Positions 1-12,363 of a stretch of DNA of 39,748 bases are shown piece by piece; position 1 is the first letter of the stretch; every line of letters starts with the position of its first letter. Source of the DNA: a virus; the IMG/VR virus record IMGVR_UViG_3300001920_000004, positions 1 through 39,748 of that record; one strand, written 5' to 3'. The translations under genes were made by a program, and so were the position numbers. A model generated the notes under the pieces. It had not been told where the DNA came from and did no database searches. It saw only the letters and a program-made list of their open reading frames with translations.

Positions 1-1
1 C

Positions 2-832
2 TACATGGGCATGAAGACCATCGTCACCGACGTGGTGCGCGAGAACAACCAGACCTACCGCCTGGGCTGGAGCGAGCAGTGCAAGGACGGCAGCAAGATG
101 GGCTTCGGCATGCCCGAATACCTGCTGCTGTTCAGGAAGCCGGCCACGGACAACACCGTGGGCTACGCCGACACGCCGGTGGTGAAGGCCAAGCCGCTGT
201 GCCTGGACGAGCTCGGCAACGCGGTGCCGTTCGACCGCAACCTCGCAATCAAGCCCGGCACCGGTTACAGCCGCGCGCGCTGGCAGCTCGATGCCCACGG
301 CTTCACCAGGTCCTCGGGCAACCGACTGCTCACGCCTGACGAACTGCGCACGCTGGCGCACGACGTGATCTTCAAGTGGTTCCGCGAGTTCAGCCTGGCC
401 ACGGTCTATGACTTCGAGACCCACGTGCGCATCGGCGAGACGCTGGAGGCCGCAGGGCGCCTGCCGTCCGACTTCATGCTGCTGCAGCCGCAGTCCTGGC
501 GAGACGACGTGTGGAGCGACATCACGCGCATGCGCACGCTCAACGGCGCCCAGTCAGCGGCCGGGCGCGAGATGCACCTGTGCCCCATGCAGTTCGACAT
601 CGCCGACCGCGCGATCGCGCAGTGGACCAACCCCGGCGAGGTGGTGCTCGACCCCTTCGGAGGCCTCATGACCGTGCCCTACCGCGCGGTGATGGCGGGC
701 CGCCAGGGCTACGGCATCGAGCTGAGCCCGCGCTACTTCGCCGATGGCATCGGCTACTGCCAGGCCGCCGAGCGCGAGATGGCCATGCCCTCCTTGTTCG
801 ACACCCTGGTAGATGAGGAGGCCACGGCATGA
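2..832 (+). CDS. DNA N-4/N-6 adenine/cytosine methyltransferase, 5' truncated by window edge
   Basis: This is the C-terminal part of a phage DNA methyltransferase that transfers a methyl group from SAM to an exocyclic amino group of adenine or cytosine in DNA. The reading frame is open to the window edge (first full codon at 2), so the ATG at 5 is probably internal. The SAM-binding motif DPFGG lies at visible residues 216-220, after the family signature LCPMQFDIADRAI. The helix-strand run ending in GIEL completes the Rossmann half. The catalytic (D/N/S)PP(Y/W) motif is not in the visible part and should lie upstream, giving a beta-type order with the catalytic motif before motif I. The gene overlaps the next by 4 bases (ATGA at 829-832), so the two are probably translationally coupled. 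The likely role is protection from host restriction or epigenetic marking. Target sequence cannot be read from this fragment. Confidence 0.88.
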   Translation, partial: YMGMKTIVTDVVRENNQTYRLGWSEQCKDGSKMGFGMPEYLLLFRKPATDNTVGYADTPVVKAKPLCLDELGNAVPFDRNLAIKPGTGYSRARWQLDAHGFTRSSGNRLLTPDELRTLAHDVIFKWFREFSLATVYDFETHVRIGETLEAAGRLPSDFMLLQPQSWRDDVWSDITRMRTLNGAQSAAGREMHLCPMQFDIADRAIAQWTNPGEVVLDPFGGLMTVPYRAVMAGRQGYGIELSPRYFADGIGYCQAAEREMAMPSLFDTLVDEEATA

Positions 833-2058
833 AGCAAGCGTCCTTCTTCGAGGGTGGCCGGCGCCTGCAGATGACGGAGAGCATCGAGCTCACCATCCAG
901 TCGCTGCAGGCCTACCTGCCCGATCACCCGGACGTGGGTATGGCCTGGTCGGGCGGCAAGGACTCGACGGCCATGCTGACCGTGTTCGTCTGGCTCATGG
1001 AATCGGGCCGCATCCCGAGGCCGCGCAGCCTCACCATCTTCCTGGCCGACACCAGGATGGAGCTGCTGCCGTTGTGGGCCGCCGCGATGCAGATCATCGA
1101 GGAGCTGCGCGAGCGCGGCATCCGCGTCGACATCGTGATGGCGCCCATGGACAAGCGCTTCATGGTCTACATCCTGGGCCGCGGTGTTCCGCCGCCCAAC
1201 AACAACACGCTGCGCTGGTGCACTCGCCAGATCAAGATCGACCCGATGCAGGCGGCAGTGGCTGAGCGCCTGGCCGAGTTCCCCGACAACTTTCTCATGA
1301 TCACCGGCGTGCGCCAGGGAGAGAGTGCGATCCGTGATCAGCGCATCGAGATGTCCTGCGGCAAGGACGGTGCAGAGTGCGGCCAGGGCTGGTACCAGAA
1401 GGTGCTGCCCGAGGCGAAGGGCCTGCGCGGCAGGATCGCCACCCTCGCCCCGCTGCTGCACTGGCGCGTGTGCCATGTGTGGGAATGGCTCAAGCACTGG
1501 GCGCCGAAGGAGGAGTTCGGCGACTGGTCCACCGCACTGATCGCCGATGCATACGGCGGCGACGAAGCGGAGGAGATCAACGCGCGCACCGGCTGCACCG
1601 GCTGCCCGCTGGCCCAAGAGGACAAGGCACTCGACAGCGTGCTGTGCATGCCGCAGTGGGCCTACCTGCAGCCGCTCAAGGGCATCCGCCCCCTTTGGCG
1701 AGAGCTGCGCGAGCCCCAGCACCGCCTCAAGAAGGCCGGCGCCGAGCGCCTCAAGGACGGCAGCATCGCCAAGAACCCGCAGCGCATGGGCCCCCTCACC
1801 TTCGAGGCCCGCCTGATGGGGCTCGAGCGGATCCTGTCGATCCAGGCCGAGATCAATGCCGAAGCCCGTGTACATCGCCGGCCGGAGATCTCGCTGATCA
1901 GCGTGGACGAGGAGGCGCGCATCCGCGAGCTGATCAGCGCCGAGACGTGGCCCGAAGGCTGGGATGGTGACGAGCCGACCGGCGACACGGTGATGGAGAC
2001 GGTCTACCAGAACGGGGCGGTGCAGCCCCTCCTCTTCAGCGCGTCGGAGGCAGGATGA
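829..2058 (+). CDS. DndC/PAPS-reductase-like PP-loop ATP pyrophosphatase
   Basis: The 409-aa product is an adenine-nucleotide alpha-hydrolase of the phosphoadenosine-phosphosulfate reductase superfamily. The PP-loop SGGKDST is at residues 41-47, a DTRME segment at 74-78, the CTRQIK signature at 131-136 and TGVRQGES at 159-166. Cysteines C177, C184, C256 and C259 (RTGCTGCPL) could hold an Fe-S cluster, as in DndC. At 409 aa it is longer than sulfate-assimilation CysH (about 240 aa) and closer in size and cysteine pattern to DndC-like proteins. It overlaps the upstream methyltransferase by 4 bases and the NinB gene by 4 bases. A role in DNA modification (sulfur chemistry) or sulfur metabolism is inference; no other dnd gene is visible. 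The family call is secure and the substrate is unknown. Confidence 0.88.
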   Translation: MKQASFFEGGRRLQMTESIELTIQSLQAYLPDHPDVGMAWSGGKDSTAMLTVFVWLMESGRIPRPRSLTIFLADTRMELLPLWAAAMQIIEELRERGIRVDIVMAPMDKRFMVYILGRGVPPPNNNTLRWCTRQIKIDPMQAAVAERLAEFPDNFLMITGVRQGESAIRDQRIEMSCGKDGAECGQGWYQKVLPEAKGLRGRIATLAPLLHWRVCHVWEWLKHWAPKEEFGDWSTALIADAYGGDEAEEINARTGCTGCPLAQEDKALDSVLCMPQWAYLQPLKGIRPLWRELREPQHRLKKAGAERLKDGSIAKNPQRMGPLTFEARLMGLERILSIQAEINAEARVHRRPEISLISVDEEARIRELISAETWPEGWDGDEPTGDTVMETVYQNGAVQPLLFSASEAG

Positions 2059-2579
2059 CCACGCAGAAGATTGATCTGGTCAACCTGCAGCAGGCGCGTC
2101 TGCTGCTGCGCGGCACGGTCTGGCCACTGTGGGAGGCGATGCTCGCCGCCGGCAAAGGGCTGCACGTCGAGTGGTGCACTGCCGAGGACGCGAAGACCGA
2201 CAAGCAGCGGCGCTACCTGCATGGCTACGTCTTCAAGACCATCGCCGAGCAGGCCGTGGTCAATGGCGAGCGCTTCGACCTCAAGACCTGGAAGGAGTGG
2301 TACCGCTCCGAGTTCCTGGGCTTCAAGGTCGTCACCTACAAGAACCCGAAGACCGGCAAGAAGGTGCGCCGCCGTGAGCGCCAGAGCACGGAAGGCCTGG
2401 GCACCAAGGGATACGCCGAATACACAGAGCGCGTGATGGCCCACGCCGCTACGGAGCTGGGCGTGGAGTTCCTGCACGAGTGGACGGACCCCGAGACCGG
2501 CGAGGTCTTCCTCATGAGCGACTACCGCCAGCGCAAGGCGGCCAACCGGCGCAAGTACGAGATCGGGGAGGCCGCGTGA
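2055..2579 (+). CDS. ninB: NinB-family recombination protein
   Basis: The 174-aa product resembles lambda NinB (Orf), a recombination mediator that binds single-stranded DNA and supports phage recombination in place of RecFOR. Visible family features are the N-terminal strand region (QQARLLLRGTVWPL), the TDKQRRYLHG segment near residues 48-57, and the WKEWYRSEFLG segment near 75-85. Length is slightly above lambda NinB (about 146 aa). It starts with ATG in a 4-base overlap with the preceding gene and ends in a GTGA overlap with the next. With two nuclease-like genes just downstream it forms a recombination cassette like the lambda nin region. Confidence 0.85.
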   Translation: MTTQKIDLVNLQQARLLLRGTVWPLWEAMLAAGKGLHVEWCTAEDAKTDKQRRYLHGYVFKTIAEQAVVNGERFDLKTWKEWYRSEFLGFKVVTYKNPKTGKKVRRRERQSTEGLGTKGYAEYTERVMAHAATELGVEFLHEWTDPETGEVFLMSDYRQRKAANRRKYEIGEAA

Positions 2580-2791
2580 ACGACATGAATGTCATCGCGT
2601 TGCCGGCGTCCACCAACTTCACGCCCGAGCAAGCCCTGGCGTCGGCTGCCTCGCTCGACCTCTCTGACGTGCTGGTGGTGGGTTACCTGGAAGGCGAACT
2701 CGTGGTGCGCTCATCGCGCATGACCCGTGCGGAGGCGCTGTTCCTCCTGGAGAACGCCAAGGCCTGGGCGCTGTCCGGAGGCGACTCGTGA
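2576..2791 (+). CDS. Small conserved phage protein, 71 aa, function unknown
   Basis: This small acidic protein sits between ninB and a nuclease-like gene. The GTG at 2576 overlaps the ninB stop codon (GTGA), the same coupling used elsewhere in this operon; the ATG at 2585 is a possible alternative start. The sequence has an N-terminal TPEQAL segment followed by alternating strands (VLVVGYLEGELVVRSS) and a C-terminal helix (TRAEALFLLENAKAWAL). No catalytic motif, signal peptide or membrane segment is visible. It ends in an ATG/GTGA-type overlap with the next gene. I do not recognise a function. Confidence 0.7.
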   Translation: MNDMNVIALPASTNFTPEQALASAASLDLSDVLVVGYLEGELVVRSSRMTRAEALFLLENAKAWALSGGDS

Positions 2792-3351
2792 CACAGTCGA
2801 AGTGGACCGAGCACAGCATCGCGCGCGCCATTGCACTGCAGACGCTGGCCCGCAAGTGCGTGGTGCTGGTCGACAACTGCAACTGGACCGGCCGCGAGTG
2901 CGATGTCCTCGGCGTCACCACCGACCTGCGCATCATCGACGTCGAGGTGAAGATCAGCCGCGCCGACCTGAAAGCCGACGCCAAGAAGGACAAGTGGTGG
3001 CAGCGCATGGGCTGGTATCACCACGGGCCCGATGCGCCGCGCCTGCACCCGCCGAAGGTCTGGAAGCACTACTTCGCGCTGCCGGCCGAGGTCTGGAGGC
3101 CCGATCTGCTGGAGTGCCTGCCGAGCAAGGCCAGTGGCGTGCTGCTGCTGCGTCATGGCAAGGACTACACCGACCGCCACCACCGGCCGCACGTCATCGT
3201 CGAGTGCGCGCGCCGCGCCACGCCGAACAGGGGCGCCGAGCGCTTGACGCCAGAGCAGGTGGTGGATATCGCCAGACTGGCCAACCTTCGCATGTGGGAG
3301 GCCTACCGGGCGCGAGACGCCGCGCGACAGCCTGCGGAGGCCACAGCGTGA
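2788..3351 (+). CDS. Putative PD-(D/E)XK nuclease (MmcB/VRR-like)
   Basis: The 187-aa product has the core arrangement of a restriction-endonuclease-fold nuclease: D39 in RECDVLGV, then E53-V-K55 in IDVEVKIS, spaced as in MmcB-like and Holliday-junction-type PD-(D/E)XK enzymes. The following ADLKADAKKDKWW segment resembles the K-D-x-K-W helix seen in MmcB-type proteins. The start (GTG at 2788) overlaps the upstream stop. Its place between ninB and an HNH-like gene suggests a role in recombination or DNA repair. The catalytic triad is seen, but the exact family is inferred from motif spacing only. Confidence 0.6.
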   Translation: MTQSKWTEHSIARAIALQTLARKCVVLVDNCNWTGRECDVLGVTTDLRIIDVEVKISRADLKADAKKDKWWQRMGWYHHGPDAPRLHPPKVWKHYFALPAEVWRPDLLECLPSKASGVLLLRHGKDYTDRHHRPHVIVECARRATPNRGAERLTPEQVVDIARLANLRMWEAYRARDAARQPAEATA

Positions 3352-3686
3352 TCTCCGTGCCGAAGTTCGTCTACGTGCGAAGCCGCAAGCTGATCAACGC
3401 CATCAAGACGTTGCCGTGCCAGTGCTGCGGAGCGGCGGCACCGTCCGACCCCGCGCACAGCAATCAGAGCTGTCACGGCAAGGGCAGGTCCATCAAGGCC
3501 AGCGACGTGTTCGTGGCCGCGATGTGCCGCACCTGCCACCGGCTGATCGATCAGGGCTCTTACCTCTCGAAGGACGAGCGCGTTTCGATCTGGACCGAGG
3601 CCTGGCGCAAGACCGTGCGCGAGCTGCTGCGCCTTGGCCTTTGGCCTGCCGACATCCCCGTCCCCGACACCCGAGTCTTCCACTGA
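3348..3686 (+). CDS. HNH-like zinc-binding protein (DUF1364-like, recombination-associated)
   Basis: The 112-aa product starts at GTG 3348 overlapping the previous stop (GTGA). The pattern CQCCG (C24, C26, C27), then DPAHSNQSCHGKG around residue 34-46, then MCRTCHRLID (C60, C63, H64) is that of the small zinc/HNH-like phage proteins of the DUF1364 group, which are encoded in nin-like regions and linked to recombination. The histidines H37 and H43 and the Cys pairs likely bind metal. The preceding gene is a possible PD-(D/E)XK nuclease. Catalytic activity is not proven by the sequence. Confidence 0.65.
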   Translation: MISVPKFVYVRSRKLINAIKTLPCQCCGAAAPSDPAHSNQSCHGKGRSIKASDVFVAAMCRTCHRLIDQGSYLSKDERVSIWTEAWRKTVRELLRLGLWPADIPVPDTRVFH

Positions 3687-3688
3687 CC

Positions 3689-4126
3689 ATGAAGCCCAAC
3701 CGACCCCGAACCAACCCCGTGGCGCTCGCCGTGCTGCGCCGCCACATCCGCCGAGACCTGGAGGCGCTGCTCGTGGACGCCCAGATCCACGCGCTGTTCG
3801 GCTCGAACTGGGCCAACCTGCTCGACCGCACAGGGCGCCTGGTCTACATCACCCTCGGCGCGGCCTGTGCGGCCAAGATGACCACCGAGGACCCGGACAT
3901 GCGCATCCTGCTCGGCACCGGTGAGGCGCTGGGAGACCTGCACTTGGACCAGCGGATCGAGCAACATCGCCCAGCCCTGTATTCCGGCTTGGCCGCCTGC
4001 GAGCGGCTGCTGCCCCAGTTGCGCGACACGGATCTCGCCGCTGCCGCGCTGGAAGTCGATTTCCGCCTGGCCGGCCCGCACGGTATCGGCACGCGCGACC
4101 TGCACCAGATGGCGAGGGCTGCATGA
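3689..4126 (+). CDS. Conserved phage protein, 145 aa, function unknown
   Basis: The start is the ATG at 3689, three bases after the previous stop, because the longer open frame upstream lies out of phase over a real gene. The protein is mostly helical, with a basic N-terminus (KPNRPRTNPVALAVLRRHIRRD) and no membrane segment or obvious catalytic motif. It ends in an ATGA overlap with the next gene, so it belongs to the same early operon. I do not recognise a family. Confidence 0.65.
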   Translation: MKPNRPRTNPVALAVLRRHIRRDLEALLVDAQIHALFGSNWANLLDRTGRLVYITLGAACAAKMTTEDPDMRILLGTGEALGDLHLDQRIEQHRPALYSGLAACERLLPQLRDTDLAAAALEVDFRLAGPHGIGTRDLHQMARAA

Positions 4127-4386
4127 CGTGTGCCGCATGTGAGGCCGCCCACGCCAACCCGCTGAGTGGCCGCAGCAACGCGGCGTGCTTTGAGTGCAGT
4201 GCGCGCGCCATCGCGCGATCGCCGCAGTTCCACGCCAGCGTGATTGCCCGCGCCCGCACGCCTGAATACAACGCCGAGCTCGAACGCGTGTTCGGCGTCG
4301 CCGAAGAAGACCAGCGCCGTGGGCACGAAGCCGCCAGCACCTGGGCCCGCCGCATCCGCCAAGCCACGAAGGAGCAAACGACATGA
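4123..4386 (+). CDS. Small cysteine-motif protein, 87 aa
   Basis: This small protein begins MTCAACEAAH and has a second Cys pair in ACFECSARAI, giving CxxC-x(n)-CxxC at about residues 3-6 and 22-25, consistent with a small zinc ribbon. The remainder is a charged helix with a basic C-terminus. It is joined by 4-base overlaps to both neighbours. A DNA- or protein-binding role is plausible but not shown. Confidence 0.65.
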   Translation: MTCAACEAAHANPLSGRSNAACFECSARAIARSPQFHASVIARARTPEYNAELERVFGVAEEDQRRGHEAASTWARRIRQATKEQTT

Positions 4387-4796
4387 GCACGCTACCGCGC
4401 GACCTGCAGGTGTTCGCCCAGCTGGGCCCGTATCACAGCCACATAGACCTGCACATGCGGGTGGTGGACGATTTCATCCCCGGTGCCGTCCACGTGGTTC
4501 AGCCCATGACGCTGAAGAAAGTCGAAGGCGAGGACGTTGAGGTTCACGAGCCCGCGCTGCGCATGCACAAGAAGGCCGCGCAGCTCCTGATGGACGAGTT
4601 GTGGCGCTGCGGCCTGCGGCCCAGCGAAGGAACGGGGAGCGCGGGCAGCCTTCAGGCCACGGAACGCCACCTGCACGACATGCAGCGCATCGCCTTTCAC
4701 CTGCTCTCGGGCCCACGCAACATCTACGCGGATGTGCCAGTCGACCTGATGGACAACGTGCACCCCGGGCCGACGATCATTGGAGGCAAGCGATGA
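4383..4796 (+). CDS. Conserved phage protein, 137 aa, function unknown
   Basis: An ATG start with a GGAG Shine-Dalgarno element about 8 bases upstream overlaps the preceding stop. The central part contains the segment MDELWRCGLRPSEGTGSAG around residues 70-88, a motif that recurs in phage proteins encoded just before Q-type regulators. No domain with known activity is visible. It is followed by the antiterminator-like gene with an ATGA overlap. Confidence 0.65.
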   Translation: MSTLPRDLQVFAQLGPYHSHIDLHMRVVDDFIPGAVHVVQPMTLKKVEGEDVEVHEPALRMHKKAAQLLMDELWRCGLRPSEGTGSAGSLQATERHLHDMQRIAFHLLSGPRNIYADVPVDLMDNVHPGPTIIGGKR

Positions 4797-5482
4797 GCAA
4801 CGACCAGTCGAAGTCCGAACGCCCCGGCGTTGCCGAGAAGTACACGAGCGCCACCGGCGCCTCCTCGCTGGTGGTGGACGCCGAACGGGCAGGGCACGCT
4901 GACCTGCTGATCGCCTCGGGCTGGAACCGCTCACGCCTGGGTTCTGCGCTGCTGCGCCTGCACAGCGAGGCCGACGCCACCAGCGAGCCCATGCGCCTGC
5001 CGGCGACGTCGGTGCAGGTCCTGGCCAGGGCCATTGCCCAGGAGCACTACAACAAAGGCAAGCGTGCGAACAACAAGGTGACCGCGGCCGACGAGGCCGA
5101 GGCCCAACAGCAGGCCGGCGAATGGTTCCTGCAAGAGCACGCCCTGCGCCTGCAGCGCCTCAAGACGCTTCCCGCGGTGCGCGACCAGCTCGCCCTGTGG
5201 GCGGCAGCCAGCAGCATCCCCGAGCCGTTGGACGTGGTGGCCAACGCCATCCACTGGTGGCTCAACAACCGATGCCACATGTGCCACGGTCTGCGCTGGC
5301 AGTTGATCCCAGGCACGCCGAAGTTGAGCAACCGCGCCTGCGACGCCTGCGAGGGCAGCGGCGTGCGGCCCATGCCCGATGGCGTGCAGACCAAGCTGGT
5401 GCTGACCTACATCAACGAGTGCGTGAGTGCCGCGCGCGATCTAATGCAGCAGCGGCTGCGGCACTCAATCCACCGAAAGTAG
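4793..5482 (+). CDS. Putative Q-type late antitermination protein with zinc finger
   Basis: The 229-aa product ends in a DnaJ-like or Q-like zinc finger: C161-x2-C164 and C183-x2-C186-x-G-x-G, with 18 residues between pairs. Lambda Q has a comparable CxxC/CxxC finger and is about 207 aa. The N-terminal half is helical. It is the last gene of the early chain; 15 bases after its stop begins a sigma70 promoter followed by a leader of about 200 nt and an intrinsic terminator. This is the context in which lambda and phage 21 Q proteins act by loading on paused RNA polymerase and suppressing terminators. The ATG start overlaps the previous stop (ATGA). The assignment rests on position plus the finger, not on close sequence identity. 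Confidence 0.55.
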   Translation: MSNDQSKSERPGVAEKYTSATGASSLVVDAERAGHADLLIASGWNRSRLGSALLRLHSEADATSEPMRLPATSVQVLARAIAQEHYNKGKRANNKVTAADEAEAQQQAGEWFLQEHALRLQRLKTLPAVRDQLALWAAASSIPEPLDVVANAIHWWLNNRCHMCHGLRWQLIPGTPKLSNRACDACEGSGVRPMPDGVQTKLVLTYINECVSAARDLMQQRLRHSIHRK

Positions 5483-5497
5483 CCCTGCAAAGTTGAG

Positions 5498-5525
5498 TTG
5501 CCAAAAAAAGTTGCCGGGCTAGAAT
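5498..5525 (+). promoter_or_regulatory. Putative late promoter (pR'-like)
   Basis: TTGCCA at 5498-5503 and TAGAAT at 5520-5525 are separated by 16 bases, with transcription expected from about 5532. The same hexamers occur in a second promoter of this phage at 38067-38096 (minus strand). A hexamer GTTGCC is repeated at 5497-5502 and 5510-5515, a 13-base period overlapping the -35 element and the spacer. This is where a Q-binding element would be expected. No second -10-like pause element is obvious in the first transcribed bases. Confidence 0.65.
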
Positions 5526-5531
5526 CGCGCG

Positions 5532-5736
5532 CCATGGACCGCAGGTGGTGCTCACCACCTCGCCCCAGGAATCTCCGATAGACGTCAGCGCCGTGGCCCG
5601 TAGCCCTCGCTGGAGACCTCCTGACAGGGAAGGTGCCTTCGCGCAGACCCCAATGTCCACCATGTCGATATGCGTCTGAATCCTAGGATGACGCCGCTAC
5701 CGACCGGAGCCCGCCCAGTGCGGGCTTCGTCTTTTT
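5532..5736 (+). ncRNA. Putative untranslated late leader RNA (6S-RNA-like in lambda sense)
   Basis: The stretch between the late promoter and the first intrinsic terminator has no convincing gene and would yield a transcript of about 200 nt, like the 194-nt lambda pR' leader. Near its 5' end a hairpin with arms AGGTGGTG (5543-5550) and CACCACCT (5553-5560) starts about 11 bases into the RNA. A 15-codon ATG frame at 5533 overlaps this hairpin and is unlikely to matter. The start point and function are inferred. Confidence 0.4.
5708..5736 (+). terminator. Intrinsic terminator (tR'-like)
   Basis: Arms AGCCCGC (5708-5714) and GCGGGCT (5720-5726) enclose a 5-base loop and are followed by TCGTCTTTTT. 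It lies directly before the tRNA gene, so transcripts from the late promoter must pass it to reach the tRNA and structural genes. Confidence 0.8.
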
Positions 5737-5811
5737 GACCGATAGCTCAGCAGGTAGAGCGCCGGCCTGTTAAGCCGGAGCGCGCTGGTTCGATGCCAGC
5801 TCGGTCAGCCA
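5736..5811 (+). tRNA. tRNA-Asn (anticodon GTT), phage-encoded
   Basis: A complete 76-nt cloverleaf can be drawn. The acceptor stem is TGACCGA/TCGGTCA (5736-5742 with 5801-5807), the D-stem GCTC/GAGC, and the anticodon stem CCGGC/GCCGG. The anticodon loop CTGTTAA gives GTT at 5769-5771. The variable loop has five bases and the T-stem is GCTGG/CCAGC with loop TTCGATG. The discriminator base is G (5808), an identity element for asparaginyl-tRNA synthetase, and CCA is encoded at 5809-5811. It reads AAC/AAU codons; AAC is frequent in the structural genes downstream. The gene sits between the late terminator and the packaging genes, as an independent cargo gene of the phage. Confidence 0.95.
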
Positions 5812-5941
5812 GCGTTTCAGCACCGCCCGCTACGCCGCCCTCCGCCGAGACACCCGGCCGGTGGTCGAGTGCTGGAGCCCATTCCCGCTACGGCAAGGGC
5901 ACCCGCCGCCAGCCACGGCACTCCAACCTCATGAGGTCCAC

Positions 5942-6232
5942 ATGGCCTGTTCGAAGCGCTCCCTCCTGCTGGCGGTCTGCCTCGGCGCCGCATCCATCGT
6001 CAACGCCGTCGCCGAGACCGTCTCGAAGACCATCGAGGTGGCCTACACGGCCTGCGCCCACGCCGTGAACTGGCTCATCGAGCGCATCGTGCCAGCCGCC
6101 GTGAAGGCCCAGGACCGCGCCGTGTTGCGCGCGCCGGTGCAGCTGGCGCAGGCCCGAGCGTTCGTGCTGCGCCTGGCCAAGCGCGAAACCCCGCGCGTGA
6201 CGCCGGGCTGGCGCATGTGCCCATCCACCTGA
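5942..6232 (+). CDS. Small exported or membrane protein, 96 aa
   Basis: The start chosen is the ATG at 5942, preceded by GAGGT about 7 bases upstream; an in-frame upstream ATG at 5861 lacks such a site. The N-terminus (CSKRSLLLAVCLGAASIV) is a basic-then-hydrophobic segment like a signal peptide or single membrane anchor, followed by amphipathic helices. An intrinsic terminator lies 18 bases after the stop. Lying between the tRNA and the terminase genes, it may be a small late accessory protein. No family is recognised. Confidence 0.5.
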   Translation: MACSKRSLLLAVCLGAASIVNAVAETVSKTIEVAYTACAHAVNWLIERIVPAAVKAQDRAVLRAPVQLAQARAFVLRLAKRETPRVTPGWRMCPST

Positions 6233-6250
6233 TCACCAGGAACCCGGATC

Positions 6251-6272
6251 GGGCCCCATGCGGGGCCCTTTT
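6251..6272 (+). terminator. Intrinsic terminator
   Basis: A perfect 7-bp stem GGGCCCC/GGGGCCC with loop ATGC (6251-6268) is followed by TTTT. It would end transcripts carrying the tRNA and the small exported protein unless RNA polymerase is antiterminated. Confidence 0.8.
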
Positions 6273-6548
6273 CCATTGGGCCGCCATCGGTCCAGCGGAA
6301 AAGTCGATCGTCGACTTCCCCGGCTCTGCCGCACTCCAACCTGCCCGTCACTCGGCCGCCAGGCCTTGGGCACCTCGTGCACCGCAACCGGGTAGGCCAT
6401 CGCAGGTCGCAGTGGCCGACACGTAACACCTGCAGCCCCTCGATGGAGATACGGCGCAGCGCCTCACTCGTGGTGGGCGCATGCGGACAGGCGAGGGCAC
6501 CCCAGTTGTCTCCAAGGTTCTCCAACTACGCAGTTGCCGAGCCTTTTC
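6273..6548 (+). other. Noncoding stretch between two terminators
   Basis: No gene with a credible start and ribosome binding site is visible in this 276-base stretch. It contains a 7-bp hairpin AAGTCGA-TCG-TCGACTT at 6301-6317. I see no convincing sigma70 promoter, so the terminase genes downstream probably depend on read-through from the promoter near 5500. Confidence 0.5.
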
Positions 6549-6577
6549 GCCCGCCGGCCCACCCCCGGCGGGCTTTT
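6549..6577 (+). terminator. Intrinsic terminator upstream of packaging genes
   Basis: Arms GCCCGCCGG (6549-6557) and CCGGCGGGC (6565-6573) enclose a 7-base loop and are followed by TTTT. It is the third terminator between the late promoter and the terminase genes. Confidence 0.8.
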
Positions 6578-6600
6578 CCCCACCCCAGGCAGGCGCGCCC

Positions 6601-6810
6601 ATGACCACTCTGCAGCCCCACCAGCAGCGCGTCGTCGAAGAGCGCGCCGACCTCAGCACCCGCCTGGATCGCCTGCGCACCTTCTTGCGCTCCTCGCTCT
6701 TCGAAGCCGTGCCCCAGGCCGAGCGCGCCCGCCTTCAGCGCCAGTCCGTCTACATGAGCGCCTACCTCGAAGTGCTCGACGAGCGCATCGCCGCCTTCCC
6801 CCAGGCATGA
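6601..6810 (+). CDS. Small helical phage protein, 69 aa, upstream of terminase
   Basis: The protein is almost entirely helical and charged, beginning MTTLQPHQQRVVEERADL and containing SSLFEAVPQAERARLQRQ and YMSAYLEVLDERIAAF. This pattern is common in small phage genes placed before terminase or in early regions; the function is unknown. It overlaps the small terminase gene by 4 bases (ATGA). Confidence 0.7.
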   Translation: MTTLQPHQQRVVEERADLSTRLDRLRTFLRSSLFEAVPQAERARLQRQSVYMSAYLEVLDERIAAFPQA

Positions 6811-7595
6811 CCAAGCCCGCAGCCAAGCCGGCCCCCAAGTCCCAGGAGAAGGCCAAGCCCACCACCACCCCGCGCAAGCGCCTGATGGACTGGGAAGCCG
6901 TCGAGCGCGACTACCGCACCGGGCGCTTCACCGACCAGGAGCTCGCCGACAAGTACGGCAACCTCGTCAGCCGCCAAGCCGTCACCAAGATGGCCAAGAC
7001 CAAGGGCTGGCAGAAGGACCTCACCGACGCCGTGCGCCAGGCCACCAAGGCCAGCCTCATTCAGGAACAGGTCCGCCAGCGCCTGCAAGCCGACTCCCAG
7101 CAGGTTGCAACAAAGTTGCCGGCAACCTCCGATGCAACTTCCGCAGCCGCCATAGTTGCCAATGCAACCGCGGCAACCGTGGACGCCACGGCCAACGCAG
7201 TGCTCGTCGCTGCCGAAGCCAACAAGCAGGTGATCCTTCAGCACCGCCGCGACATCCAGTCGCTGCGCGCCATGCTGATGGACATGGCTGGCGAGTTGCA
7301 GCAAGCCGGTCGCGCCGACCTGAGCCGCTTGGCCGAGGTGCTCACGGCCGGCGCCGAGGGCGAGATGGACGCCGAGCGCCTGGAGGCCCTGCGATCCGAC
7401 CTGCAGGCCGTGGCCAGGCTGCCGATGCGCGTGCTGTCGGTGCAGCGCATGACCCAGGCCATGACCCGGCTGCAGTTGCTGGAGCGCCGCGCGTTCGGTC
7501 TCGATGAACCCGAGCAGCCGCCGCCGGTGGACGAGTTGGCCGAGCTCAGCGACGAAGAGCTGGAGAGGCGAATTGAGCAGTTCGCTCGCCGCTGA
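6807..7595 (+). CDS. Terminase small subunit
   Basis: The 262-aa product is the DNA-recognition subunit that selects the packaging start site and hands DNA to the large subunit. After a Lys/Pro/Ala-rich tail (residues 1-25) comes a helix-turn-helix region, FTDQELADKYG then SRQAVTKMAKTKGW (about residues 40-70). An Ala/Thr-rich linker and long helices for oligomerisation follow, with an acidic C-terminus. The start is the ATG at 6807, in a 4-base overlap with the preceding gene; the longer frame upstream runs out of phase over it. The stop lies 23 bases inside the large-subunit gene. Confidence 0.85.
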   Translation: MTKPAAKPAPKSQEKAKPTTTPRKRLMDWEAVERDYRTGRFTDQELADKYGNLVSRQAVTKMAKTKGWQKDLTDAVRQATKASLIQEQVRQRLQADSQQVATKLPATSDATSAAAIVANATAATVDATANAVLVAAEANKQVILQHRRDIQSLRAMLMDMAGELQQAGRADLSRLAEVLTAGAEGEMDAERLEALRSDLQAVARLPMRVLSVQRMTQAMTRLQLLERRAFGLDEPEQPPPVDELAELSDEELERRIEQFARR

Positions 7596-9096
7596 GCTGG
7601 CCCGGCGCCAGCGCGAGCAGCAGGCCTTGGCGGTGCCGCAGGCCAAGTCCTTGCCGGTGGTGCTGCCGGTACCGCAGAGCCGGGAGGAGCGCCTGGCGCT
7701 GCTGGCCCTGCTGGAGGAGCAGGAGCGGCGCAAGCAGCGGCGCAAGCTGTTCAGCTACTTCCCCGAGACCGGGCCGCTTCGGCGTGAGCTGTACGCGCAG
7801 CACATGCAGTTCTTCCGGCTGGGCGCCGAGTACAAGACCCGCGGCTTCATGGCCGGCAACCGGGTTGGAAAGACCGAGGGCGGCGGCTGCGAGGTGGTCT
7901 ACCACCTGACCGGGCGCTACCCCGACTGGTGGGAAGGCCACCGATTCACGCACGCCATCGACGCCTGGGCGGCTGGCGACACCAAGGAGACGGTGCGCGA
8001 CATCCTGCAGTTGAAGCTGATGGGCCCCGAGGGGGCCTACGGCACCGGCCTGATCCCGGGCGAGGACATCGTGAAGTTCCAGCGGCGCCCGAACGGCGCC
8101 GGCGCGCTGGACTACGTGATCGTGAGGCACCGCACGGGGCGCGTGTCCCGCCTGGCCTTCAAGTCCTTCGACCAGGGTCGCGAGGCCTTTCAGGGGACCG
8201 AGAAGCACCTGGTCTGGCTTGACGAGGAGTCCAACGAGGCGATCCGCGCGGAGTGCGCGATGCGCCTGGGTACCACCAACGGCCTGCTGATCGAGACCTT
8301 CACGCCGCTGCGAGGCCTCACGCCGGTGGTGATGAACTACCTGGGGGCCGAAGCCGAGATCCCGGCCGATCGCGTGGGCCGCGCCGAGCACCAGGCTCTG
8401 GTGATGGCTGGCTGGGATGACGTGCCTCACCTGGATGCCGCGCAGAAGGCCCGGCTGATGGCCAACTGCGAGCCGCACCTGCGCGAGGCGCGCAGCCGGG
8501 GAGTTCCCAGCATCGGCGCCGGCGCGATCTACCCGGTCCCCGAAGACCAGATCACGGTCGACGACTTCCCGATCCCAGAGCACTGGCCACGAGCCTACGG
8601 CCTGGACGTCGGCTGGAACTGCACCGCCGCGGCGTTCGGCGCGCTCGATCGCGACAACGACGTGCTCTACGTCTACTCCTGCCACTCGCAAGGGCAGCAG
8701 GAACCCAGCACTCATGTGGCCGCCATCAAGGCCCGCGGCGACTGGATCCCCGGAACCATCGACCCGGCCAGCCGCGGACGCAGCCAGAAGGACGGCGAGC
8801 AACTGCTGGAGATCTACACGCTGCTCGGCCTGCCGCTCACGCCCGCCGACAACAGCGTCGAGTCGGGCCTGTTCGAGGTTCACCAGCGCCTGGCCACCGG
8901 GCGCCTCAAGGTGTTTCGCTCCTGTCGTCCGTGGTTCGCGGAATACCGCATCTACCACCGCGACGACAAGGGCCACATCGTCAAGAAGAACGACCACCTG
9001 ATGGACGCCACGCGCTATCTGGTGGTCACCGGACTGCACATCGTGCAGACCAACGTCGGCGTCGAGAGCTTTCGCACTCGCCGGCGCTACTCGTAA
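7573..9096 (+). CDS. Terminase large subunit (ATPase/nuclease)
   Basis: The 507-aa product packages DNA into the prohead. The ATPase half has Walker A AGNRVGKT (94-101), Walker B LVWLDEE (213-219) and the coupling motif TFTPLRG (242-248). The RNase-H-like nuclease half shows acidic residues D345 (GLDVGW), D397 (TIDPAS) and D478 (HLMDATRY). I chose a TTG start at 7573 because GGAGAGG lies 5-11 bases upstream and the frame before it is only the out-of-phase end of the small subunit gene. The gene pairs with a P22-type portal, so headful packaging is likely. Confidence 0.95.
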   Translation: MSSSLAAELARRQREQQALAVPQAKSLPVVLPVPQSREERLALLALLEEQERRKQRRKLFSYFPETGPLRRELYAQHMQFFRLGAEYKTRGFMAGNRVGKTEGGGCEVVYHLTGRYPDWWEGHRFTHAIDAWAAGDTKETVRDILQLKLMGPEGAYGTGLIPGEDIVKFQRRPNGAGALDYVIVRHRTGRVSRLAFKSFDQGREAFQGTEKHLVWLDEESNEAIRAECAMRLGTTNGLLIETFTPLRGLTPVVMNYLGAEAEIPADRVGRAEHQALVMAGWDDVPHLDAAQKARLMANCEPHLREARSRGVPSIGAGAIYPVPEDQITVDDFPIPEHWPRAYGLDVGWNCTAAAFGALDRDNDVLYVYSCHSQGQQEPSTHVAAIKARGDWIPGTIDPASRGRSQKDGEQLLEIYTLLGLPLTPADNSVESGLFEVHQRLATGRLKVFRSCRPWFAEYRIYHRDDKGHIVKKNDHLMDATRYLVVTGLHIVQTNVGVESFRTRRRYS

Positions 9097-9104
9097 GGCA
9101 CGCC

Positions 9105-11168
9105 ATGGCCGATCCCACCAATTCACGCGACCTCGCGCCAGCCGACAAGGGCAGCATGGGTCTTGTCGAGCTCGAGGAGCTCGTCAAGGACTCGATGCAC
9201 CAGCCCGAATGGCGCCAGCGCGCCGATGAGGTTGCGGGGTTCATCGACGGCAAACAGATCGCGCCGGACAAACGCATGGAGATGGAGGAGACCGGGCAGC
9301 CCGTCTCCATCACCAACCTCATGCAGCGCACGCTCAACGGCGCCCTCGGCCAGGAAGCCAAGGCCCGTGTGGACTGGAAGGCCACGGCCGACAACGACGC
9401 GTTCCTGGAAGTCTCCGAGGTCATGAACGACCGCCTGCACGAAGCGCAGCGCGAGACCTACGCCGACATGGCGATCAGCGACGCCTACAAGAGCCAGATC
9501 GGCCCGGGCCTGGGCTGGGTGGAGGTCTCGCGCAACCCCGACCCGCTGGAGTACCAGTACCGGGTGTGCGAGGTGCACCGCAACGAGATCTGGTGGGACT
9601 GGCGCAGCCAGCACCGCGACCTGCGCGACGCCCGCTGGCTGTGCCGCCAGCGCTGGGTGGACCGCGACGAGGCCGAAAACTACTTCCCCGAGCACAAGCT
9701 CATCTTCAAGTACGGCTGCCACCACGGGCCGATCTCGGACACGCTCAGCCTGCAGCTGGTCCAGGCCGACACGTTCGAGCGGATCATGACCACGCGCAGC
9801 AGCTTCAACGTGCTGCAGGAGGAGTGGCTCGACAGCACGCGCGCCCGGGTGAAGTTCTACGAGGTCTGGTACCGCCGGCCCAAGCTGGTGGTGGCCATGC
9901 TGCTGCCCGGCGGCAAGCGACTGCCGTTCAACGTCGCCAACCCGTTCCACCACGAGATGGTCTCGCGCGGCATGGCCCAACTCATGAAGGGCCCGAGCTT
10001 CGAGGTGCGCCAGGCCATCTTCGCCGGCCCGTACCGTCTGGTCGACCGCGGCACGACGCTGCGCCGCTTCCCCTACATCCCGTTCTGGTGCTACCGCGAC
10101 GACGCCGATCGCACGCCCTACGGCCTGGGCGAGGGCATGATGTCGCCGCAGCAGGAGTACAACGAGCGGCGCTCCAAGCTGCTGTGGCTGCTCAAGGCCA
10201 AGCAGGTGTTCGCCGACGCCGACGCGCTGGACGAGCGCTACAACAGCCTGAAGGAACTGGCTCTCGAAGCGCTGCGCCCGGACGCCATGTTCGTGCTCAA
10301 CCCGATGCGCAAGAACGGCCAGTTCGGCCTGCGCATCGAGCACAACGGCCAACTCGCCAAAGAGCAAGTCGAGGTGATGCAGGACGCCAAGGAGCTGATC
10401 CAGGACCAGCCCGGCATCTACTCCACCATGCTGGGCAACGCGCCATCGGGCGTGACGTCTGGCCTGGCCATCAACTCGCTGGTCGAGCAGTCCATGGTCA
10501 GCCTGGGCGAGGTCAACGACAACTACCGCTACGCCCGCCGCATGGTGGGTGAGGCGCTGTTCAACCTCATCGCCGAAGACCATCTCGCGCGAGACCTTCA
10601 GATCCGCATCGGCCAGGGCAAGAAGGCCAAGGTCATTGTGCTCAACACGGTCGACCCCGAGACGCGTCTGCCGAAGAACCAGGTGAAGGATGCCCCGGTG
10701 AAGGTCGGCCTGCAGGATGTGCCCAGCACGCCGGCGCACCGCATGCAGCAGCAGCAGCAGATCGCGCAGGCCCTGCAGGCCGTGGGCGCGAACCCGGATG
10801 CCGTCATCCTGCTCACCTCCGCGCTGATCGACAGCAGCGACATCCCGAACCACGCCGAATACGCGGCCTGGCTGCGCAAGCGCGCCGGCATCCCCGAGCC
10901 GGGCACGACCGACGACGAGGAGGTCGAAGCCACCGAGGCCGCCATGCAGCAGGCCAAATCCATTGCACAGAAGGCGCAGATGGACGCACTCGCCGCGAAG
11001 ACCTCGCGTGATCGCGCCGCGGCCGAGCAGGCCTCCAGCGCGGCGCGCCTGAACCTGGCCAAGGCCGACCAGATCACCGACGCGATCGAGAACCCGCCCG
11101 AGGCCGCACCAGCGGCCAACGACGAGGACGCGCTGATCGAAGGCGCCTGGAAACAGGCCACGGCCTGA
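9105..11168 (+). CDS. Portal protein, P22 type
   Basis: The 687-aa product forms the dodecameric ring at the head vertex through which DNA enters and leaves. Its length and sequence pattern fit the P22-like portal family: an N-terminal clip/wing region with EIWWDWRS and RWLCRQRW segments, a central FPYIPFWCYRDD-PYGLGEGM segment, and a C-terminal helical barrel rich in Gln and Ala (about residues 545-680). It follows the terminase by 8 bases. Confidence 0.93.
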   Translation: MADPTNSRDLAPADKGSMGLVELEELVKDSMHQPEWRQRADEVAGFIDGKQIAPDKRMEMEETGQPVSITNLMQRTLNGALGQEAKARVDWKATADNDAFLEVSEVMNDRLHEAQRETYADMAISDAYKSQIGPGLGWVEVSRNPDPLEYQYRVCEVHRNEIWWDWRSQHRDLRDARWLCRQRWVDRDEAENYFPEHKLIFKYGCHHGPISDTLSLQLVQADTFERIMTTRSSFNVLQEEWLDSTRARVKFYEVWYRRPKLVVAMLLPGGKRLPFNVANPFHHEMVSRGMAQLMKGPSFEVRQAIFAGPYRLVDRGTTLRRFPYIPFWCYRDDADRTPYGLGEGMMSPQQEYNERRSKLLWLLKAKQVFADADALDERYNSLKELALEALRPDAMFVLNPMRKNGQFGLRIEHNGQLAKEQVEVMQDAKELIQDQPGIYSTMLGNAPSGVTSGLAINSLVEQSMVSLGEVNDNYRYARRMVGEALFNLIAEDHLARDLQIRIGQGKKAKVIVLNTVDPETRLPKNQVKDAPVKVGLQDVPSTPAHRMQQQQQIAQALQAVGANPDAVILLTSALIDSSDIPNHAEYAAWLRKRAGIPEPGTTDDEEVEATEAAMQQAKSIAQKAQMDALAAKTSRDRAAAEQASSAARLNLAKADQITDAIENPPEAAPAANDEDALIEGAWKQATA

Positions 11169-11233
11169 CCCCGATTTCCCCGCAGCGCGTGCCGGCGCGC
11201 TGGTGGCGGTATCTGCCGGCAACCCCCTGACGT

Positions 11234-11263
11234 GAGCCCGTCCGCAGCAATGCGCGCGGGCTC
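11234..11263 (+). terminator. Stem-loop between portal and scaffold genes
   Basis: Arms GAGCCCG (11234-11240) and CGGGCTC (11257-11263) enclose a loop with an inner CGCA/TGCG pair. The 3' flank TGTCGCTTCC is only weakly T-rich, so this may be a partial terminator or an RNA-processing hairpin that sets portal versus scaffold/coat levels. The surrounding 133-base gap has no gene. Confidence 0.45.
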
Positions 11264-11301
11264 TGTCGCTTCCGCATCTCAGCGATACGAGGAACCCCCC
11301 A

Positions 11302-12363
11302 ATGGACTCCAACGAAAGTCTGGCCAAGACGCTGGACAGCCTTCCCGACGACTTCAACTTCGAGGATGCGAACGCCCTGGCGAAAGTCATGGGCGACCCC
11401 GACCCGAACGACGAAGCCGCGACCCAGGCTGTCCAGGGCGATACCACCGCAACCCAGGTCACCGAGACCGCCACGGCGCCCGCCGCAGCACCCGCTGCTG
11501 CACCGGCTCCCGCGGCCGCTCCGGCACCTGCACCTGCCGTGGAGAGCAGCGCATCGCCCGCCGCTGCAGCACCGGCCGCTGACGTGAAGGTCGAAGGAGT
11601 GCTCGCCAAGGACGGCAAACACGTGTTGCCCTACTCGGCGCTGCAGGAGAGCCGGCGCGAGGCGCTCACCCAGCGCAGCCGTGCCGAACAGCTGGAAGAG
11701 GCGAATCGACGCCTGCAAGAGCAACTCGAAGCCGCGAAGGCCGGTCGCCCCATTGGCGACGAGGCCATCTCGGAAGAGGCGCTGGCGCAGGTCGAGAAGG
11801 ACTTTCCACAGCTCGCTCCCTTTGTGAAGTCGACCCGCGCGATCCAAGCGACCGTCGCGAAGTTGACCCAGCAGCAGAGCCAGCCCCAAGGCGACAAGAA
11901 CGCCGAGATCGACGCCGAGCTCGACGCACGAGCCGAACTGGACGCAGCCCTTGCCCAGCGCCCCCTGCTGAGCAAGTACGTGGACCAGGGCGGCGTGGTG
12001 TGGCAGCGCGCCATTGAGATCGACCGCAGCCTCCTGGGCAACCAGGAGTGGGCCTCCAAGCCCATCGCCGAACGGCTGGTCGAGACCGAGAAGCTGCTCG
12101 CGCAGGAACTCGGCATCCAGCTCCCGACGAGCGCTCCTCCCCCACCGGCACCGGCAGGCACGCCGGCTGCGGCTCCCGCACCCCGCGTGGACCCCGCCGC
12201 AGCGGCACCCGCCGCAGGCCCCTCAACGCTCAGTGACATCTCCGGTACCGCACCACGCGTCGAAAAGGACCCGTGGGACGACCGGCTGCCCATCGAAGGT
12301 TTGGCCGCTGCAGAGCGCATGACCGACGAGCAGCTCATGAGGTCGCTGGGCATTCCCTACTGA
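11302..12363 (+). CDS. Putative scaffolding protein
   Basis: The 353-aa product lies between portal and coat genes, the usual place for the scaffold. It is acidic at the N-terminus, has two Ala/Pro-rich linkers (about residues 45-90 and 270-310), a charged coiled-coil core (ESRREALTQRSRAEQLEEANRRL and following, about 115-145), and a short C-terminal helix. These are features of internal assembly scaffolds rather than enzymes. The sequence itself is not close to a scaffold I can name. Confidence 0.7.
   Translation: MDSNESLAKTLDSLPDDFNFEDANALAKVMGDPDPNDEAATQAVQGDTTATQVTETATAPAAAPAAAPAPAAAPAPAPAVESSASPAAAAPAADVKVEGVLAKDGKHVLPYSALQESRREALTQRSRAEQLEEANRRLQEQLEAAKAGRPIGDEAISEEALAQVEKDFPQLAPFVKSTRAIQATVAKLTQQQSQPQGDKNAEIDAELDARAELDAALAQRPLLSKYVDQGGVVWQRAIEIDRSLLGNQEWASKPIAERLVETEKLLAQELGIQLPTSAPPPPAPAGTPAAAPAPRVDPAAAAPAAGPSTLSDISGTAPRVEKDPWDDRLPIEGLAAAERMTDEQLMRSLGIPY

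Follow-up and report, generated by a model that had tools for sequence, protein, structure and literature searches.

A conserved leader RNA beside a Q-like gene may take part in late antitermination in phages of Comamonadaceae-like hosts

How are the late genes of this virus reached by RNA polymerase, when the promoter ahead of them is followed by a terminator? Antitermination that is set by a DNA site together with a sigma-dependent pause has its textbook example in the Q proteins. The initial annotation of the window (the entire IMG/VR virus record, 39,748 bases) proposed a divergent Q-type antiterminator and described, in this order, a zinc-finger ORF, a sigma70 promoter within 15 bases of it, an untranslated leader, a terminator, two further terminators and the terminase genes. 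All of these features were found to be present (Table 1). The stop codon of the zinc-finger ORF ends 15 nt ahead of the -35 box, which starts at 5498, the -10 box occupies 5520-5525, and the first terminator sits about 173 nt past the expected transcription start near 5532. Both further terminators are strong hairpins, of which the scanner listed the first but not the second because the latter has four T's. The stretch that had been singled out ends at 5811, which coincides with the last base of a tRNA-Asn(GTT) gene absent from the initial annotation; this tRNA would be transcribed upon read-through. The 96-aa ORF behind it gave no confident family in family-profile searches. At the left end of the record a DNA methylase (PF01555, 5-832) adjoins a PAPS-reductase-like protein (PF01507, 829-2058), a possible DNA-modification pair.

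Table 1. Features in and around the proposed late switch, in window positions.
Feature	Position	Strand	Evidence or remark
Q-family protein, 229 aa	4793..5482	+	ORF and homolog profiles
Late promoter, pR'-like, TTGCCA-N16-TAGAAT	5498..5525	+	promoter scan; -10 box register same in relatives
Conserved structured leader RNA	5532..5631	+	covariance models R1 and R2; start near 5532 inferred
RNA 5' domain: P1 (5535-5537/5565-5567) closing hairpin H1 (5541-5549/5554-5563)	5535..5567	+	
P3 stem CAGCG/CGCTG, conserved GUAGC (5600-5604) in loop	5586..5612	+	
Intrinsic terminator, tR'-like	5705..5729	+	z -4.1
tRNA-Asn(GTT)	5736..5811	+	tRNA gene search
Small ORF, 96 aa, hydrophobic N-terminus	5942..6232	+	translation
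Intrinsic terminator	6251..6268	+	z -2.5
Intrinsic-terminator-like hairpin	6549..6573	+	z -2.65
crAss001_48-related small protein, first gene past the terminators	6601..6810	+	E 6.6e-20
Terminase small subunit (TerS)	6807..7595	+	phrog_1206, E 9e-34
Terminase large subunit (TerL)	7504..9096	+	true start probably near 7570-7620

The promoter was the sole sigma70-like site in positions 1-12000 of the window. The promoter scan alone is not significant, because one site was found and 0.5 were expected from shuffles; it is the comparative data that make the promoter credible. In relatives the -10 box keeps its register, even in those whose Q gene is 0.5-2.3 kb away on the upstream side. The same scan, up to 12000, found no separate promoter at 6578-6600, which would have counted against the proposed arrangement. 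Since a promoter and then a terminator precede the late genes, these genes require read-through, and the neighbouring Q-like gene would be the obvious agent.

Relatives of the 229-aa protein were found through the neighbours of TerL genes, among which a Hydrogenophaga aromaticivorans prophage carried a homolog at the same position. Homologs were present in 14 of 401 genomes from the family to which Hydrogenophaga belongs (best 36-46% identity), and 359 other genomes of the same class gave no further family member. Direct searches with the window protein, by tblastn in phages and with peptide patterns in viral and genome contigs, were without a match. When the DNA after the Q genes was aligned, a -10 box was seen to coincide with the Q stop codon or to lie close to it, and a conserved leader of about 120-140 nt came next. 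From seven copies, RNAalifold predicted 32 base pairs, 17 of them with two-sided change. A covariance model (R1), which had the window among its training sequences, was searched over the same 401 genomes and found strong copies outside the training set in three of them (G091, G139 and G325; E 1e-22 to 1e-24). With a DNA pattern made from the RNA alone 34 viral contigs were found, and R1 scored all 34. The untranslated leader is present as had been annotated; taken there as plain DNA, it is a conserved, covarying RNA that travels with the Q family.

In the 41 distinct sequences, 25 of the 32 base pairs showed two-sided (compensatory) change and 90% of the cells were paired. The covariation was 0.444 in comparison to 0.183 for shuffled and about 0.09 for slid alignments, and 0 of 500 shuffles were as high. 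The slid controls dropped to about 42% paired, a comparison in which the rows were aligned to the model, favouring its structure. As G-U cells exceeded A-C cells 122 to 45, the signal points to a + strand RNA rather than a DNA palindrome. The apical ACAGCCTGGC..GCCTGTAGCGA owes part of its conservation in the viral contigs to the search, for which these letters were the pattern, and was independently present in genome-derived copies (L130, L131, L132, L141, L134). In two copies (L183, L188) the H1 hairpin was swapped for a larger GC-rich 5' domain, and the 3' domain was kept. A coding leader was considered unlikely, as the lengths vary in all three frames and a fully open frame was found in only 20 of 38. 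Rfam 15 gave no leader match in the window or in eight related loci, only chance-level scores.

R1 scored the window's own copy at 75.8 bits with the window in training, and the match (5520-5631) takes in the -10 box. A leave-window-out model (R2, 29 sequences) was used solely as a test of this copy; its own RNAalifold structure lost helix P2 because the MAFFT alignment was imperfect. Within the window, R2 placed only 5520-5633 above noise (37.8 bits, E 7e-8; the next score was 9.3), and in a search of terminase relatives (646 kb of phage DNA) the window copy was its only match (E 3.3e-7). About 600 kb of terminase relatives without the usual Q partner of the RNA gave no RNA match. The window copy forms P1 with three pairs, H1 with nine and P3 with five together with the GUAGC loop; the outer helix P2 is largely lost and only partly formed. 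The window RNA folded no better than shuffles (z 0.04), so that its structure rests on comparison, folding energy alone not being significant.

We then weighed what the conserved leader means for the mode of action of Q. The Q proteins of lambda and phage 21 bind a DNA element between the -35 and -10 boxes of the late promoter (PMC6606751; PMC7171158), and such elements can differ between phages. It could thus be that each Q of the present family binds its own element in the spacer and that the RNA does something else, for instance in pausing or stability. The spacer of the window does carry a TTGCC direct repeat. Among 28 representatives, however, the spacer held 0.10 bits per position, with a pairwise identity of 28%, as compared to 1.05 bits and 59% for the leader, and no shared motif was found in it across the family, phage-specific elements being possible. 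Moreover, the P1 pairing covaries, so selection in P1 acts on the RNA and not on a pause sequence fixed in the DNA. We likewise rejected a -10-like pause element at +1 to +6, since it is not conserved and these positions covary as P1. Taken together, we regard ordinary DNA-bound Q with an unrelated leader as unlikely. Because the shared constraint lies in the leader and the spacer is random, a role in cis of the nascent RNA in Q-dependent antitermination is preferred.

GTTGCC-type repeats of the promoter (window 5497-5518) recur inside the TerS gene (window 7107-7180). In the L039 prophage a 15-base stretch, GCACAAAAAAGCAGC, is common to the promoter and TerS (7037 and 9345).

A terminator was detected within 172 nt from the RNA 3' end in 28 of 40 cases, in comparison to 54 of 800 random stretches (7%), and late transcription must therefore pass a terminator. 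Most of these 28 terminators start within about 10 nt of the RNA 3' end; the gap in the window is 73 nt. An RNA that ends right at the terminator would give a discrete species of 120-200 nt. The terminated transcript might be a stable sRNA that acts on distant targets in the lysogen, for which StxS, from the pR'-tR' region of Stx phages, is a described precedent (PMC7873438). We find this quite improbable, since the conserved parts are paired elements and internal loops with no unpaired seed evident, the U-tracts of the terminators after the RNA copies are short and interrupted, and the tight coupling to one protein family would be left unexplained. We also considered that P3 and the terminator arm, which both hold GCCCGCA, might form a switch, and rejected this, as the terminator arm does not track P3 changes to CCACC or CCGAT.

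The coupling to the Q family was evident in both data sets. Among the 34 contigs found with the RNA pattern, 32 had a Q-family gene upstream on the same strand, at a distance of -5 to +8 nt in 21, 25-41 nt in five and 0.5-2.3 kb in six; one of the two remaining contigs had Q elsewhere and the other was cut off. Eight of the nine genomes with the RNA fell among the 14 of 401 that carry Q (P about 2e-12), or seven of nine without G325, in which the Q match is weak (E 8e-4) and unconfirmed by a larger profile. Where genes lie between Q and the promoter, the RNA stays attached to the promoter and not to Q, and for this reason the leader was rejected as a 3' UTR of Q. In four such loci (L184, L170, L136 and L134) the inserted ORFs were HNH homing-endonuclease-like as read by eye. 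In L147, the RNA copy (1501-1638) lies 37 nt past a tyrosine-integrase-like gene, and the larger profile finds no Q in this fragmented genome. The proximity of RNA and Q could also reflect hitch-hiking instead of joint function.

These data also bear on the idea that the leader RNA alone modifies the host polymerase, with the Q gene separate or accessory. The putL element of HK022 lies just past its promoter, has two stem-loops and requires no phage protein (PMC9378689), and the leader RNA likewise begins near +1 and has a terminator after it. However, if the RNA sufficed, a lysogen would have its late genes switched on, the RNA and the Q gene are almost always inherited together, and the length of the RNA is about 115 nt as compared to about 70 for put. 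We hold autonomous action of this kind to be very unlikely.

Phages with different terminase families share the order Q, promoter, RNA, terminator, (tRNA) and terminase or other late genes. Downstream of the module we found terminases of different families and portal or tape-measure protein genes, and since these downstream genes differ, the module moves between phages. Many members carry tRNA genes past the terminator (Thr, Met, Trp, Gly and Arg; Asn in the window), and a Hydrogenophaga prophage (L094, the same as L039) has a permuted tmRNA at the matching place (7734-8039), between promoter/terminator and terminase. In a related phage (L083) tRNA-Trp is found where the window has tRNA-Asn. 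Of the terminase relatives that have a Q homolog, L094 and L083 are the closest, and their leader was not detectable as the window-type RNA. Promoter and leader are 94% identical between the two (L094 6958-7169, L083 6215-6424), whereas the adjoining stretches differ, and this leader may represent a second type.

The protein itself has a zinc finger at C161/C164...C183/C186 (CHMC...CDAC) and a 40-residue helical insert in comparison to shorter relatives. In Pfam and NCBIfam nothing scored above threshold for the window protein, and its family reached no Pfam family's curated cut-off. As for the Pfam Q families (list from PMC7171158), PF03589 (lambda Q) matched one of 14 members below its cut-off (E 0.036) and not the window protein, and Q21 (PF06530) and Q82 (PF06323) were not among the Pfam families matched by any of the 14; DnaJ-type fingers scored about as well as Q in this comparison. 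PHROGs gave a weak match to 'anti-termination protein Q-like' at the finger of the window protein (E 0.018), and such Q-like matches were obtained for five of the 14 members. With a family profile of 33 sequences lambda Q (7ubm, E=0.0012) was the best PDB match; it covers two colinear segments, one of them the zinc finger and the other, weak, at the N terminus (GDADvLiAAGw versus GTDVMAAMGM in lambda). Hhalign of the family against lambda Q gave E 5e-5 and prob 67, for the finger only.

A structural match to Q proteins, by which the initial annotation had proposed to check its claim, was not obtained: no Q structure was among the matches listed by Foldseek against the PDB for two member models (pLDDT 79 and 85), both from shallow alignments. 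The top BFVD match, A0A6J5NR76 (E 5e-4), is an uncharacterised protein of a phage. Because no member qualifies for the Pfam family and the predicted fold finds no lambda Q, we call the protein Q-like, probably a distant relative of lambda Q and not a PF03589 member, as judged from sequence. The proposal of a divergent Q-type antiterminator was supported in part, by the feature order, the weak colinear lambda Q match and a layout that is repeated in dozens of phages, but not by the fold. That the protein is some other early regulator, with the late genes expressed by the promoter and leaky termination, would agree with the absence of a Pfam Q family at threshold, the scores of the DnaJ-type fingers and the negative fold comparison, but merits little credence in view of the colinear lambda Q match, the PHROG matches and the Q-like genome position.

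The best explanation, to which we assign a probability of about 60%, is a Q-type late antitermination switch of lambdoid-type phages with Comamonadaceae-like hosts and with the nascent leader RNA as a participant. Host polymerase would fire constitutively from the late promoter, and the transcript would form a two-domain RNA that begins at about +1, and would as a rule stop at the tR'-like terminator. The Q-family protein, encoded by the last early gene, would modify RNA polymerase at this promoter, and the modified polymerase would read through this terminator and the next ones into tRNA-Asn, terminase and the other late genes. We infer that the conserved leader RNA would act in cis during its synthesis by holding or loading the Q-modified polymerase. 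The negative fold comparison, the poor folding of the window RNA with its defective P2, and the different leader of L094 and L083 speak against this explanation. More tentatively, the Q-type antiterminator may be loaded at the conserved nascent RNA and not at promoter DNA, as a hybrid of Q and N/put that is recurrent in Burkholderiales phages.

This putative Q-type late control contains an RNA family new to Rfam 15, with about 40 distinct examples and strong covariation. The Q family and the RNA had no match in 50,697 phage records, nor had the Q-RNA DNA in 72,556 plasmids, and phage and plasmid searches with a relative as query also gave none. In the literature, as covered by open-licence papers and thus as weak evidence, no such element was found. 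The carriers are a group of little-known phages of Comamonadaceae-type bacteria, and the findings suggest that their late genes are switched on with help of the nascent RNA and not by DNA-bound Q alone. If true, this would provide a compact and testable antitermination system outside enterobacteria. The RNA can serve to mark the late promoters of environmental phages, and the late-switch module gives a reason for the tRNA and tmRNA genes at this location.

Compared with known systems, the locus resembles lambda Q/pR'/tR' in that Q is the last early gene and is followed by an adjoining promoter, an untranslated leader, a terminator and the late genes. The CxxCxG...CxxCxG finger is shared as well, and the family profile gives the weak colinear match to lambda Q. 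It differs from lambda in scoring below the PF03589 threshold, in lacking a shared DNA element in the spacer and in its strongly conserved structured leader RNA, of which the RNA model finds no copy in the lambda Q-pR' region. With StxS it has in common that the terminated late leader could be a discrete RNA species; StxS is an Hfq-binding sRNA that is not known to have a comparable conserved, covarying structure. HK022 put is similarly a structured nascent RNA near a phage promoter and upstream of terminators, but, in a comparison of size and context, put is shorter and acts alone in early operons, whereas the leader RNA belongs to a late operon and is linked to a Q gene. Lambda N/nut differs in its early operons, its boxA/boxB elements and its arginine-rich peptide, none of which was noticed at the present locus, and would be alike, if the best explanation is true, in that a phage protein and a nascent RNA element act together. 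A Q family tied to a leader RNA would then join the Q mechanism with the RNA-based ones of N/nut and put.
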